This document shows positions 1,391 through 5,720 of a stretch of 64,000 nucleotides of DNA, piece after piece; position 1 is the stretch's first letter; each line of letters opens with the position of its first letter. Below the pieces are notes generated by a model. The model worked only from the letters and a program-made list of their open reading frames with translations, was not told the origin of the DNA and did not search any database. The stretch is from Shewanella sp. 10N.286.48.A6 (lineage in GTDB: Bacteria; Pseudomonadota; Gammaproteobacteria; Enterobacterales; Shewanellaceae): positions 36,300 through 100,299 of the forward strand of contig NZ_MCVI01000035.1 of assembly GCF_002873135.1 (NCBI RefSeq), written 5' to 3'. The translations under genes and the position numbers were made by a program.

Positions 1391-1486
1391 GTTTTGAGCT
1401 AGACTTGTTTATAGGGTAATTGCCATTTAATTGCCCTATATTAGCTGCTGTAGAAAATGCTGCTTAGGTACAAAGGGGGGCGTGAG

Positions 1487-2146
1487 ATGAACAAAGAAGC
1501 ACAACAGACACTGCCAAAGACCTGCTTTACGGCTTTATATCTGATGAGCTTAAAAGGGTATATCTCAGTAACTGTAGGCTTGAGTTTAATGCTTGGCATA
1601 AGCACTAATGCCCAAGGGGCTAATGCTCAAGACGCGAGTCCCCACAAAATTTCAGCAAGCATGCAAGCTTTTGATGGTTTGCCGCAACTGCGATATCTTA
1701 CATCCGATCGTCATCATGGTCATTCGCGTCATTCGCGTCATTCACGTCATTCAGGTTCATCAGTGCGCTGGGGCGTCGGTGTGGGGTGGAATAACGGTTG
1801 GCGTTACCCTTATTATAATCGGTGGGGAAATCGATGGAATAATGGCTGGGGCTATGGCTGGAATAATGGCATAGGCTGGAATAACGGCTGGCAAACGCCC
1901 TATCGCTATGATTACTATGATCGCCATTACCGCAGAAACTATGTGCAACCGCAGCAACATCAAGTGGTGTCTCCACCGAAACGATCCACCACCAGTATTG
2001 AATACTCCAGTGGCTTAACCCAGCTACCTGAAAATGCCCGCGCTATCCAAAGAGACGGCAGAACAATTTATCAGTGGCAAGGGCAAGAGTATTACTTTGA
2101 CTGGTCATCACAACGCTATATGAGATTAGCCGCAGAAAAAGACTAG
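1487..2146 (+). CDS. His/Trp/Asn-rich exported protein, DUF6515-like
   Basis: This is a 219-residue protein of unknown function. The chosen ATG at 1487 has a strong ribosome site (AAAGGGGGG, 1472-1480); an in-frame ATG at 1457 lacks one. A hydrophobic segment (about residues 29-40 of this start) looks like a signal or membrane sequence. A low-complexity core follows: SRHSRHSRHS, then repeated WNNGW/WGYGWNNG motifs and a Tyr/Arg-rich part. The C-terminal 45 residues (LPENARAIQRDGRTIYQWQG, then EYYFDW) resemble the conserved tail of DUF6515 proteins. The His and Trp repeats are also visible as short DNA repeats around 1730-1880. The gene has its own terminator. The DUF assignment is from memory and moderate. 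Confidence 0.75.
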   Translation: MNKEAQQTLPKTCFTALYLMSLKGYISVTVGLSLMLGISTNAQGANAQDASPHKISASMQAFDGLPQLRYLTSDRHHGHSRHSRHSRHSGSSVRWGVGVGWNNGWRYPYYNRWGNRWNNGWGYGWNNGIGWNNGWQTPYRYDYYDRHYRRNYVQPQQHQVVSPPKRSTTSIEYSSGLTQLPENARAIQRDGRTIYQWQGQEYYFDWSSQRYMRLAAEKD

Positions 2147-2198: not shown

Positions 2199-2234
2199 AA
2201 AAAGCCCTGATGGATCCTTCCATCAGGGCTTTTT
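2199..2234 (+). terminator. Rho-independent terminator after the His/Trp-rich gene
   Basis: A long perfect stem (AAAAGCCCTGATGGA paired with TCCATCAGGGCTTTT) with a four-base loop ends in a T run. The flanking A run makes it usable in both directions, so it could also stop minus-strand transcripts that come through the repeat array. Confidence 0.9.
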
Positions 2235-2301: not shown

Positions 2302-2598
2302 CACTACGAAAACTGGGGAGAGAAGCAGTTGCTCATGTCCAAATAGTCGTCAACGGACTCAATAGGTTTGATAGTAGAAAGCAATTCCATGAAGTAAGGG
2401 GTATAGAATGTTTTCATAATCAATAGTCGCTGGGGACGACCATCAATCAAATCAAAGCTATTGGTTGTTAAATTAGTTAATACTCGTAATACATCTCCTA
2501 GTTTATGCTTTTTAATATTTCCCCTTATGACTTCCATTCATCAGGGTTACGCTGTTGCTTGCCTACGACATATTATTGTTATTATTCCTTGTTGCAGG
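2302..2598. repeat. Array unit 0, highly degenerate
   Basis: Only the architecture is recognisable. An H1-like hairpin AACTG...CAGTT with loop GGGGAGAGAAG lies at about 2311-2330. An H3-like hairpin GTCG-CTGGGGA-CGAC lies at 2426-2440, followed by ATCAAATCAAA. The closing box CCTACGAC...GTTGCAGG is at 2562-2598. The left boundary is approximate. An open frame of 77 residues on the minus strand here (2304-2537) is probably fortuitous. Confidence 0.5.
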
Positions 2599-2862
2599 TA
2601 TTCAATTCAGTGACCATGCAAGCATGGGGGAGAGTGCTGTCACCTTGTTGAAACGGATAAATTAGCCATGTTGATAGAAGTATTACCTTGGGCGCTTAAG
2701 CCCTAATAAAACCTCTATTGCTCACTGCTGGGGAACAGTTAGCAACACATCAAATCTGCCTGAATCTATCTCCAATCACCCTAGTGACATCCTTACTTTA
2801 GGGTGGTTTACCTGCCTGTAGGCATACCTGCGACTTATAATTATTGTTAGCCTTGTTGCAGG
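2599..2862. repeat. Array unit 1, diverged
   Basis: The H1 hairpin is GTGAC...GTCAC at 2610-2643 with loop GGGGGAGAG. H3 is TTGCT-CA-CTG...CAG-TT-AGCAA at 2718-2745 with the loop motif CTGGGG. It is followed by ATCAAATCTGCCTGAATC. H4 is CACCCTA...TAGGGTG around GTGACATCC. The short stem TGCC-TGTA-GGCA and the closing stem CCTGCGAC (2827-2834)/GTTGCAGG (2855-2862) are kept. Stem sequences differ from units 2 and 3 while pairing is retained. Confidence 0.7.
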
Positions 2863-3141
2863 TTTCAATTCAGTGATACTGCAATCATGGGGGGAATGCA
2901 GTCACTGAGCTTGAATAAAATTGACAAGCTTGATTGTTTAAAAGCCTTTATCGTCGGAATATTAGCTTCTTAATAAGTGCACTTGGGGTGGTGCGCTTAT
3001 CGAATCAAACCTACCGGAATCGTTATAAAATCAATTCGTTTTGTCTTTACTGGCACTAATGACATCCTTTCATTAGCACCGGCCTTACACTGCCTTTTGG
3101 CATTCCTGCGACCTATTATTATTGTTAGTCCCTGTTGCAGG
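2863..3141. repeat. Array unit 2, canonical 279-bp copy
   Basis: H1 is at 2871-2907: CAGTGA-ta-CTGCA pairs with TGCAG-TCACTG around ATCATGGGGGGAA. H3 is at 2974-2999: TAAGTGCAC pairs with GTGCGCTTA around TTGGGGTG. H4 is CTAATGA-CATCCTT-TCATTAG. It is almost identical to unit 3 except for one base in the H1 loop and a cluster of changes at 3013-3057. Confidence 0.9.
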
Positions 3142-3420
3142 TTTCAATTCAGTGATACTGCAATCATGGGGGGGATGCAGTCACTGAGCTTGAATAAAAT
3201 TGACAAGCTTGATTGTTTAAAAGCCTTTATCGTCGGAATATTAGCTTCTTAATAAGTGCACTTGGGGTGGTGCGCTTATCGAATCAAACCTGCCGGAACA
3301 GTCTTAAAATCCATTCGTTTCGTATTCACGGGCACCAATGACATCCTTTCATTAGCACCGGCCTTACACTGCCTTTTGGCATTCCTGCGACCTATTATTA
3401 TTGTTAGTCCCTGTTGCAGG
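3142..3420. repeat. Array unit 3, canonical 279-bp copy
   Basis: Same length and layout as the preceding unit: H1 at 3150-3186, H3 at 3253-3278, closing box GTTGCAGG at 3413-3420. The stretch 3292-3336 carries 11 of the 12 differences from the preceding unit. One of them weakens a pair in H4 (CACCAATGA against TCATTAG). Confidence 0.9.
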
Positions 3421-3582
3421 TTTTTAGCTTACATAGCTGCTTTATATCAGCTTTTTATGTAATAAAATTGACAAACCTGAGGGTGAACAGCTCTATATTT
3501 TACAATAGATTTGTCGCTAATTAATTGCCGATGGGGGCAGCGTTTAATTCAATCAAGTTTGTCGGAACTGTGTTAATCCCCA
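3421..3582. repeat. Array unit 4, truncated and diverged copy next to OrfA
   Basis: At the H1 position there is an unrelated sequence that still folds: TTACATA-GCTG (3429-3439) pairs with CAGC...TATGTAA (to 3462). The box AATAAAATTGACAA is kept (3461-3474). H3 is AATTAA...TTAATT at 3519-3549 around TGCC-GATGG-GGCA, followed by ATCAAGTTTGTCGGAAC. The unit ends where the OrfA coding region begins, so the H4 part is missing or replaced. Confidence 0.7.
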
Positions 3583-3882
3583 CTAATTGCTATTAATCGA
3601 TAACAGCTGCTGATTCAGCTGAGATAACTTAAGTTGTAAGTGAGCTATCTCTGACACTAAAGCGCTTTTCTGTTTAGCTTGTGTACGCTTGCGAGTGGTC
3701 ACGCCCTCGGCATTAGTTTTTGATGTCATCGCGGTTTCTTTATTTTTAACCCATTGGTAAACCGTTTTTGCTGAGATGCAGTATTGCTTAGCAACATCAG
3801 AAATTAATCGATTATGTTGCTTCACTTCAGCGATCACTTGCTGCTGAAAGCTCTCGGGATAAAACTTTGTTTGTGCTGACAT
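3583..3882 (-). CDS. Orphan IS3-family OrfA-like HTH protein
   Basis: This 99-residue protein matches the OrfA (transposase N-terminal) type of IS3 elements. It has an N-terminal helix-turn-helix (SDVAKQYCISAKTVYQWVKN) and a C-terminal leucine-rich coiled coil (VSEIAHLQLKLSQLNQQLLS) of the kind that multimerises. The ATG at 3882 (MSAQTKFYPESF) is preferred because GGAG lies five bases upstream; an ATG at 3897 is possible. In a normal IS3 element OrfB with the DDE domain follows by frameshift. Here there is no OrfB: the tandem repeat array begins directly at the stop codon on the same strand. It may be an IS remnant or a domesticated DNA-binding protein. Confidence 0.8.
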   Translation of the reverse strand: MSAQTKFYPESFQQQVIAEVKQHNRLISDVAKQYCISAKTVYQWVKNKETAMTSKTNAEGVTTRKRTQAKQKSALVSEIAHLQLKLSQLNQQLLSINSN

Positions 3883-4301
3883 ATTAGCTCCAAGCATTTA
3901 AAAGCGATTAACTTCGTCGGCTTAACGATAAGACTATTCTACTTCCCATAGGCTACAGCCTACATGCTTATAAAAGTGGCACTGATTACGACAAAGATTC
4001 AAACATATGTGTAATAATTTCATCATCGACTCCTGCTGATATTCAAATTTATAAGGCTTAAATTTCTCCACTAAATTGGTCAAATTAAAAGCTACCTCTT
4101 TAGTGATACATAACTCAATGGAATACTTGTGCCAATTATGAAATAAATATTTTACCCTTTTATTACAGTGACTTATTTTTTTAAAGTGTTAGCTCTAAAA
4201 AGTGGGCGTGAAACATCTTGGTGCAAAAGTACTATTTTGGTGCGAATTGGTTTTAATTGGTAAACAAAAGTAACCATTAAAACTCTATGGTTTTAAGGCA
4301 C
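3883..4301. other. AT-rich intergenic region upstream of the OrfA-like gene
   Basis: No gene is supported here. It contains a small palindrome TAGGCT-AC-AGCCTA near 3950 and a short direct repeat AATTGGTTTTAATTGG near 4245. The promoter of the OrfA-like gene should lie here, but no convincing -35/-10 pair with normal spacing was found. The bases TTCGTCGG near 3910 recall the TCGTCGGAA box of the array; this is too short to call another unit. Confidence 0.4.
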
Positions 4302-4329
4302 AAAAAAGCGGCAATAAATGCCGCTTTTT
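4302..4329 (-). terminator. Terminator after mgtE
   Basis: Stem AAAAGCGGCA with TGCCGCTTTT and loop ATAAA, flanked by A and T runs, lies 30 bases past the mgtE stop codon. Confidence 0.9.
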
Positions 4330-4358
4330 ATGCTGATGAGAGAGGGGGTTTTACGGCG

Positions 4359-5720
4359 CTACATTAAGAAAATGGTCGCTAAGCCTAAAAAGGCGAATAA
4401 GCCAATCACATCGGTGACTGTGGTTAGTACCATACCGCCAGCCAATGCCGGATCGATATTGAGTTTTTTAAGTATGAGCGGAATACTGGCCCCCGCTAGT
4501 CCGGCAACGGTCATGTTAATGAGCATCGCGCCGCCAATGAGACCGCCCAGTGCCATATCACCTTTCCATAGCCACACTGCAAAGAAGACCAGTACCGACC
4601 ACATGAGGCCATTAAGAAAACCAATGGCTAATTCTTTACCGATAAGCCAACGGGAGTTACTTTGGCCAATATGACCCAAGGCGATACCACGAATAACCAG
4701 AGCTAAGGTTTGATTGCCTGCCACACCGCCCATACTAGGGACAATAGTCATTAAAATAGCGATGGTGGCAAATTGCTCTAACGTGCCTTCAAACATATTA
4801 CTTACTGATGCAGCAAGTAAGGCGGCAAACAAGTTAATGGTAAGCCATAGCGAGCGTCTGAAGGTGCTTTTCATTACGGGGCCAAAGGTATCTTCATCGT
4901 CATCCATACCCGCCATCCCCATCATTGAGTGTTCGGCGTCTTCACGAATAACATCGACCACATCATCAATGGTAATACGGCCTAATAATTTTTGCGCTTC
5001 ATCTACCACTGGGGCCGAAATCCAGTCATGGCGTTCAAATAATTGCGCCACTTCATTATCAGGCATGTCCACAGGGATGCTTTCTAATTCAGGATCCATG
5101 ATGCTGCGAATGGTTGAATTAGGATCACAGGTGAGTAGATCGGCAAGGCGCACCCCACCAAGCACATGATCGTTGCGATCAACCACATATAAGGTATCTG
5201 TGGTATCGGGTAAGTTGCCGCGCTGGCGCAAATAGCGTAATACCACATCAATATTAACGTCAGGACGCAAAGTGACCGTATCTGTATTCATGATACTGCC
5301 AGCGGTGTCATCAGGGTATGACAGTGCTTGTTCGACGCGATGGCGGTCTTGACTGCTCATGGATTGCAGTACTTTTTTATAAACAGCATCTGGCAAACTT
5401 CTTAAGATGTAAGCCAAGTCATCGGTATCCATCCCTGAGGTGGCTTGGGCTACTTTTTCTGGGGTCATAGCGCTGATGAGTGAATCTTTTAACTCTTCAC
5501 CGAGTTCTTCTAGGATTTCACCCGCTTGCTCATGATCAATCAGTTGCCATAACACTTGACGAGTTTTCGGCGGTGATGATTCAAGAATTAATGCGACATC
5601 GGAGGCGGCCATGTCATGAAGCATATTTCTGACATGAACAAACATACCGCTACCTAATGCTTGTGTAAGCTGATTAAGACGTTGTTCGGTCAGTTCGCTG
5701 TCGATGACTTCAATACCCAT
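4359..5720 (-). CDS. mgtE: Magnesium transporter MgtE
   Basis: This is an inner-membrane magnesium channel of 453 residues, the usual size. It has an N-terminal superhelical MgtE_N domain (about 10-130), a pair of CBS domains (about 140-260) that sense cytosolic magnesium and gate the pore, and five membrane helices (about 290-453). The pore-lining segment TTVTDVIGLF near the end carries the conserved aspartate. The ATG at 5720 is preceded by AGGAG. It stands alone, with its own terminator. Confidence 0.95.
   Translation of the reverse strand: MGIEVIDSELTEQRLNQLTQALGSGMFVHVRNMLHDMAASDVALILESSPPKTRQVLWQLIDHEQAGEILEELGEELKDSLISAMTPEKVAQATSGMDTDDLAYILRSLPDAVYKKVLQSMSSQDRHRVEQALSYPDDTAGSIMNTDTVTLRPDVNIDVVLRYLRQRGNLPDTTDTLYVVDRNDHVLGGVRLADLLTCDPNSTIRSIMDPELESIPVDMPDNEVAQLFERHDWISAPVVDEAQKLLGRITIDDVVDVIREDAEHSMMGMAGMDDDEDTFGPVMKSTFRRSLWLTINLFAALLAASVSNMFEGTLEQFATIAILMTIVPSMGGVAGNQTLALVIRGIALGHIGQSNSRWLIGKELAIGFLNGLMWSVLVFFAVWLWKGDMALGGLIGGAMLINMTVAGLAGASIPLILKKLNIDPALAGGMVLTTVTDVIGLFAFLGLATIFLM

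Follow-up and report, generated by a model that had tools for sequence, protein, structure and literature searches.

We propose that a locus in Shewanella sp. 10N.286.48.A6 is a chromosomal operon that probably serves as the regulated precursor of tandem small RNAs, a reading that draws on sequence conservation and on analogy with better-characterized systems. In the window (i.e., the whole 64,000-nucleotide stretch of DNA that was analyzed), the operon lies on the minus strand. Its order, as read from sequence, is a promoter, a gene for a tiny protein (about 28 to 56 residues), a gene for a helix-turn-helix (HTH) protein, and, depending on the locus, one to eight RNA copies. The initial annotation described a free-standing repeat without coding logic; instead, the array forms the 3′ portion of a conserved operon that also comprises two small genes and a promoter motif, and the full feature is wider than the repeats, extending from a terminator at position 2199 to a promoter at position 4135. 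Because a conserved, folded RNA ends this small operon in many Shewanella, the tandem array has the appearance of a regulated RNA system and not of junk satellite DNA.

The repeats were first described as about five units of about 280 bp. The tandem array itself was borne out, as was its spacing: the box GTTGCAGG ends at 2598, 2862, 3141, and 3420, with intervals of 264, 279, and 279 bases, and the box alone is not rare (5 occurrences in the 64,000-nucleotide window versus 2.4 expected by chance). Tandem Repeats Finder reported one 279-bp array in the window (score of 1092), and a repeat search of the window recovered a pair of 279-nt copies (95%) that have weaker matches on either side. The units, however, are not equal. 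Unit A (3142..3420) and unit B (2863..3141), each 279 bp and read on the minus strand, are 95.7% identical. The next minus-strand unit (2599..2862) is 264 bp long and shares 62% identity with these two center units, and the degenerate outermost unit (2302..2598, minus strand) shares 52 to 55% with all others; neither contains a match to the RNA model R1 described below. Because of these identities, the array is best described as a pair of nearly identical units, a third unit that has diverged, and degenerate edges, and not as five equal copies. The earlier description of a near-identical center with decayed edges stands, while its suggestion of ongoing homogenization is not borne out: the center units are 95.7% identical within the window's genome and 92.1% identical within the nearest genome, versus 92 to 94% between the two genomes, values that would fit an old duplication or weak homogenization. 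The array is the only such locus in the 64 kb, as evidenced by Tandem Repeats Finder and R1, both of which matched it alone, and a single locus was found in the window's own genome. Its copies lie together rather than scattered singly, and the unit was not found to be an annotated known element. Among the loci scanned, L046 alone has a second, shorter direct repeat, with a period of about 78 bp, located 600 to 850 nt upstream of the HTH gene.

Folding identified the strand on which the array can be read, which is the minus strand and not the plus strand, on which the array was first presented. One unit folded as minus-strand RNA gave a z-score of −3.57, better than all 200 shuffles, whereas the same unit folded as plus-strand RNA gave −0.82, with 39 of 200 shuffles at least as good; the minus strand is therefore the informative one. 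What is conserved between loci is a core RNA of about 75 to 133 nt, not the whole repeat unit. R1, a covariance model built from the core alignment, has three matches in the window, all inside the array and on the minus strand, and nothing else at an E value of ≤5. These are copy 1 (3462..3568; 60.0 bits; E = 5.5e-12), copy 2 (3194..3299; 53.2 bits), and copy 3 (2915..3020; 42.8 bits). At the gathering score, Rfam had 0 matches in the window and in the loci of nine relatives, in agreement with the earlier view that the family is not a known one, and we rate the core RNA as a candidate new structured RNA family.

The core fold was analyzed in alignment A2, which comprises 44 elements from 34 loci, taken 3′ of HTH genes and bounded by GTTYN and NNTT[TA]. 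A long closing stem (P1) encloses an inner hairpin (P2) with a CCCC(C)A loop, and three C columns of the P2 loop are invariant in 44/44 elements. Across P1 and P2, 94.7% of cells are able to pair, compared to 74.9% in shuffles and 34 to 45% in slid versions of the alignment, and both sides vary in 13 of the 14 pairs. The covariation score of 0.632, a measure inflated by the relatedness of the sequences, compares with 0.247 in shuffles and was reached by 0 of 500. Because the element filter required at least seven of eight pairs in columns 6 to 13, those pairs are partly circular as evidence; columns 14 to 16 and P2 were outside the filter and still covary. RNAalifold, unaided, predicted P1 and not P2. 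In the window, two of the three P2 pairs of copies 2 and 3 are nonstandard as aligned to R1; copy 2 folded alone forms a CCCC-loop hairpin, and on this basis, copies 2 and 3 are each predicted to fold alone into such a hairpin. Together, the minus-strand folding and the covarying, conserved fold uphold the initial description of the repeats as structured.

In addition to the core, the arrays contain other hairpins. The array in the window ends with an intrinsic terminator (2199..2234, minus strand) that was detected by an inverted-repeat search and consists of a 16-bp perfect hairpin with an AGGA loop, followed by a T tract. Under a strict terminator scan, 7 of 38 loci gave such a terminator, and the other 31 gave none. 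Loops were also counted in 20 arrays, the lengths of which were set by eye. The GGA loops suggest that CsrA might be a partner in some species, and RNAs of the CsrB, CsrC, RsmY, and RsmZ type are known for repeated GGA-loop hairpins. We nevertheless consider it unlikely that the array acts as a sponge for CsrA (RsmA) in the manner of CsrB or RsmZ, in which A(N)GGA loops would titrate CsrA, each further tandem copy would contribute binding sites, and the C-rich hairpins would be structural. GGA-loop hairpins are enriched over the 20 arrays (29 versus 8.9 expected) and recur in differing sequence (e.g., in L041, L049, L053, L060, and L062), and the terminator loop is AGGA or ATGGA in all seven loci with a strict terminator, observations that a sponge would explain; yet CCCC-loop hairpins are far more enriched (50 versus 2.7 expected in the same arrays), and the GGA loops are unevenly distributed, with at least two in seven arrays, the terminator's only in five, a single one in one, and none in seven. 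Moreover, copies within a locus are not independent, and no Rfam family, Csr types included, matched the window or the nine relatives' loci.

A further reading, which we hold to be rather unlikely, concerns the relationship between the proteins and the RNA. An OrfA-derived protein, originally the DNA-binding protein of a transposase, may have been domesticated as an RNA-protein regulator and, together with the tiny protein, might bind the core RNAs through their invariant GTT...TTT frame and CCC loop, such that the array would supply cofactors at a tunable dosage. It is also improbable that the cores act individually as transcription terminators or attenuators to reduce read-through, with the tandem copies as backups. 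The 3′ end of the core, a stable stem with NNTTT and A/T-rich sequence after it, has the form of a terminator, but termination would need neither the inner CCCC(C)A hairpin nor the 5′ GTT box. Also, the cores occur in series, and in the window's clade, the array is closed by a strong terminator that is distinct from the cores.

The model R1 was used to follow the RNA beyond the window. Within the genus, 60 of 129 genomes have a match; 34 of these supplied model sequences and match by construction, while 26 did not. Larger searches were run with stricter filters, which lose weak matches. In a sample of the order, 18 of 394 genomes matched, all of them Shewanella (1 of 114 genera), and in a sample of the class, the only match among 369 genomes was the window's own (1 of 272 genera); the other 113 genera of the order sample and 271 genera of the class sample had no match under these filters. 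The 95 loci that were fetched yielded 166 R1 matches at an E value of ≤0.01, of which the best 150 were aligned. Ninety-two loci with an HTH gene were examined, and one of these, L126, is a duplicate of L064 and was left out of the R1 search.

At 57 of the 92 loci, the HTH gene is accompanied by at least one core among the best 150 of the 166 matches. Copies per locus, which are lower bounds, number one (19 loci), two (12 loci), three (16 loci), four (4 loci), five (4 loci), seven (1 locus), and eight (1 locus). All 142 aligned copies in these 57 loci are on the strand of the HTH gene and within 2.5 kb downstream of it; the other 8 of the best 150 sit in L231 to L234. Regular expressions detected the promoter motif in 54 of the 57 RNA-carrying loci and the small gene in 53. 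The 35 loci without a core among the best 150 of the 166 matches include the duplicate L126 and L150, which has a weak match, and several of the 35 keep the promoter and the small gene without an R1 match. For instance, L160, L162 to L165, and L176 to L178 combine the promoter motif, a small gene encoding HLGxSQWDVE (or an ending in WDVD), and the HTH gene, with no R1 match. Downstream of the HTH gene in L177 are A-rich stretches and a short CCCC-loop hairpin, perhaps a diverged RNA.

The three remaining genomes of the 60 with R1 matches are informative about which parts of the operon travel together. First, G011 and G053 have the small gene, a shorter and diverged HTH frame, and three cores each. 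Second, G061 (L233, around 3700 to 4390) has the promoter, the small gene, and the core RNA; an HTH frame was not detected among these parts, and the OrfA-like gene has apparently been lost naturally. The RNA, small gene, and promoter therefore stay together even where no HTH gene was found. A separate observation comes from G076, which has an extra, lone core-like match about 20 kb from its main locus (L234, 3550 to 3652; 45 bits). No promoter motif is present in the fetched stretch, no small or HTH gene was recognized upstream, and the inner loop lacks CCCC.

These distributions also bear on the level at which the array is conserved. The initial annotation had taken the 279-bp unit as the sequence to trace through Shewanella and other gammaproteobacterial genomes; a DNA-level match to the repeat unit was found in 5 of 129 genomes of the genus, and the unit length is not conserved but varies between species from about 134 to 280 bp. 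That the array works as DNA, with the HTH protein binding the repeats as, for example, an autoregulatory or chromosome-organizing site, is a reading to which we assign a quite low probability. By family, the HTH protein is expected to bind DNA through its fold, and the repeats adjoin its gene; still, conservation tracks RNA pairing (5 of 129 genomes by DNA match versus 60 of 129 by RNA model), and G061 keeps promoter, small gene, and core without a detected HTH frame.

The regulated RNA precursor that we favor would be transcribed from the sigma54-like promoter TTGGCACAAGTATTCCAT (4118..4135, minus strand), the sole match to the search pattern in the window. The window's genome has three matches to this pattern, and the other two lie inside long open frames. 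The motif TGG[CT]A[CT]-N5-T[TC]NCAT precedes the small gene in 67 of 90 loci versus 0.2% of shuffled regions, and it is spaced as sigma54 promoters are. GG at −24 and C at −12 were fixed in the search pattern, which left the base before the −12 C free, so the presence of GG at −24 within TGGCAC in 67 of 90 loci is in part imposed. The GC expected at −13/−12 is absent from these loci. Because the −12 C is preceded by A (37 loci), C (18 loci), or T (12 loci) and never by G, the match to sigma54 promoters is imperfect.

Two GCACCA half-sites are located farther upstream on the minus strand, at 4238..4243 and 4219..4224, which is 109 and 90 nt upstream of the promoter TGG, respectively. The spacing pair of 109 and 90 nt is common to L041 to L047; a half-site at 88 to 90 nt occurs in L041 to L061, L066 to L068, and some others, and further loci have half-sites at 100 to 124 nt upstream. 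Exact GCACC-N5-GGTGC palindromes are found in L181 and L186, and no GCACC half-site was found in L062 to L065 and relatives. Upstream sites of NtrC resemble these half-sites and palindromes, and the pair at 4238..4243 and 4219..4224 may thus be NtrC-like upstream sites. Membership of the operon in an NtrC regulon is doubtful, though, because neither the promoter motif nor a GCACC half-site occurs in the 450 nt that precede glnA in the window's genome.

Downstream of the promoter is the small gene (3934..4026, minus strand; 30 codons, MMKLLHICLNLCRNQCHFYKHVGCSLWEVE), an open frame with relatives of about 28 to 56 codons upstream of HTH genes at other loci. The encoded proteins share the motif HLGxSQWDVE or similar at or near the C-terminal end. 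In the group of 32-residue proteins, differences by codon position number 525, 423, and 1106, a third-position excess that fits a translated gene. In the group of 50-residue proteins, this excess is mild (1114, 1198, and 1611).

The second gene (3583..3882, minus strand) is an orphan IS3-OrfA-like HTH gene of 99 codons from an ATG at 3882, within a frame that is open to 3897. Its product matches the Pfam family HTH_Tnp_1 (PF01527), the DNA-binding half of IS3 transposases, at 26.9 bits (cutoff of 24.1). Comparison with the PDB returned only weak coiled-coil and RacA-type matches, and the C-terminal segment has coiled-coil-type matches. On the minus strand, no long frame follows the HTH gene before the terminator, and no OrfB is present in the window. 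The HTH profile A1 has a match at an E value of ≤1e-6 in 98 of 129 Shewanella genomes, where weaker A1 matches, several per genome, look like IS3 copies. Many Shewanella HTH genes have their own tandem repeats downstream, in units of about 134 to 280 bp. Relatives of the HTH gene were located at 24 loci in named records, among them Shewanella olleyana, S. frigidimarina, S. electrodiphila, S. basaltis, S. hafniensis, and strain ANA-3. The ANA-3 locus (L116) has coordinates identical to those of G112, whose locus (L128) contains three cores.

Related HTH genes occur in other contexts too. L155 to L173 encode HTH proteins of an A1 subgroup, many ending in KQLLxRR or similar, for which no small gene, promoter motif, or core was found; several have GCACC-N5-GTGC-like sites upstream, possibly marking a related system with a different RNA. 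In the order sample, 19 genomes outside the genus have A1 matches, and 12 of the 19 loci were taken (L189 to L200). Eight of these are IS3-like, and an rve integrase adjoins the HTH gene in all seven that were tested (L192 was left out). The A1-scoring HTH genes of L189, L190, L195, and L198, which come from a different family within the order, were seen to have neither an OrfB-length frame nor a small gene or core downstream.

In the window, the operon sits below a cluster identified via Pfam as encoding a sigma-54 factor, sigma-54 modulation protein, PTS EIIA, RapZ, PTS-HPr, and MgtE (rpoN-rapZ-mgtE), a position that we count in favor of the small-RNA precursor reading. Among the 92 loci, RapZ is an upstream neighbor in 34 and MgtE in 39; none of four neighbors was found in 39 of 92, most of which have only about 2.5 kb of upstream flank. 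It is very unlikely that the locus is a remnant or satellite of an IS3-type element, with the OrfA-like gene as a fossil and the repeats as decayed ends or duplicated sequence, because the HTH_Tnp_1 match and the naming of the only other protein from the database search (2 proteins, one of them the window's own) as a transposase are set against a single-copy, syntenic pattern with RapZ or MgtE upstream in many loci, the lack of OrfB in the window, the finding in eight relatives that the longest frames in the 1.5 kb after the HTH gene are unrelated neighbors (NMT1-like, DUF6136, lyase, and GGDEF, with no integrase) versus an integrase in 7 of 7 tested loci outside the genus, an RNA fold kept by covariation, 16 invariant columns in the HTH protein alignment, and searches of 50,697 phage and 72,556 plasmid records that gave no match. 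Synteny, fold conservation, and the lack of a catalytic gene led us to reject a satellite or IS remnant.

The other flank of the operon in the window carries a 229-residue frame (1457-2146, plus strand) that is rich in His, Trp, Asn, and Gly, has no Pfam match, and is convergent to the operon. This frame was found near the operon in 23 of 92 loci. In L057, L058, L066, L136, and L142, an NMT1/THI5-like gene follows the array, at the place where the window has the His-rich frame and UbiD.

For the tandem small RNA precursor, we envisage the following mechanism. Sigma54 and an NtrC-type activator would read the promoter under a starvation signal, giving one transcript from which both small proteins would be translated. 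This transcript would be cut between core elements to release several small RNAs, and the exposed CCCC(C)A loops might then pair with G-rich stretches of target mRNAs, with tandem copies providing a higher small-RNA dose. The HTH protein could autoregulate the operon or bind its nucleic acid, and the tiny protein may help in processing or activity.

The operon is apparently undescribed. It was not found in the literature, a search of open-license papers only and hence not proof, and none of five terms that were looked up is present in a paper on sRNAs of S. piezotolerans (PMC5471319). If our reading is true, a well-studied genus has a widespread regulatory operon that combines a new structured RNA family with a tiny protein and with a gene named only as a transposase in at least one record. 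Also, the series of one to eight RNA copies behind one gene would be a natural one for studying dosage and concerted evolution of tandem RNAs.

Several known systems share features with this locus. CRISPR and TIGR guide arrays likewise place a tandem RNA array beside a protein gene; here, the loop is constant (CCC in 44/44 elements) rather than a variable guide, and the operon has no nuclease gene, and so a guide-type array was rejected. The HTH protein resembles IS3 OrfA (PF01527) in its above-cutoff HTH and coiled-coil-type C-terminal segment, but unlike an IS3 element, the locus has no OrfB, a fixed place, and a linked small gene and RNA array. NrsZ of Pseudomonas is a nitrogen-regulated sRNA under NtrC/RpoN-type control, a promoter class that the Shewanella operon may share, although the Shewanella RNA has no Rfam match. 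GGA-loop hairpins link part of the Shewanella arrays to CsrB, CsrC, RsmY, and RsmZ, from which the locus differs by its two-protein operon, its CCCC-loop core, the absence of GGA loops in 7 of 20 arrays, and, again, the lack of an Rfam match.

The closest parallel is with the CcaF1-CcsR/cuckoo (CIN1) systems of alphaproteobacteria. In Rhodobacter, RNase E and a small protein mature four tandem sRNAs from the 3′ UTR of the CcaF1-CcsR1-4 operon (PMC10253847, PMC8625941), which has an alternative-sigma promoter (RpoHI/HII), a DUF1127 small-protein gene, tandem homologous sRNAs, and a terminator at the end (PMC10253847). The related sRNA NfeR1 has a C-rich motif, CCUCCUCCC, that is exposed in unpaired regions (PMC10746234). 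The Shewanella operon shares a small-protein gene, tandem RNA elements 3′ of it, an alternative-sigma-like promoter, and an end terminator. The tandem elements downstream of the small-protein gene are present as sequence elements, with one copy in 19 of 57 loci, and they would be sRNAs. Nonetheless, the Shewanella motif is CCCC(C)A (A2) rather than the anti-Shine-Dalgarno CCUCCUCCC, the promoter is sigma54-like, there is an extra OrfA-like gene, and the small protein lacks a DUF1127 match. None of six small proteins matched DUF1127 in Pfam; a profile comparison, with DUF1127 sequences from only 4 of 30 fetched DUF1127 loci, gave a probability of 0.8% and scores not above shuffles; and the window's genome had no DUF1127 match. 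Lacking DUF1127 and an Rfam match and having a different motif, the locus was not assigned to the cuckoo/CcsR (CIN1) group. We rate it as a 3′-UTR tandem RNA operon whose RNA family is new and which also encodes an OrfA-derived protein, and for which CcaF1-CcsR is, by analogy, most likely the nearest worked-out model of how it works. If so, Shewanella would provide a second, apparently independent case of the alphaproteobacterial design that joins a small protein to tandem C-rich-loop RNAs.
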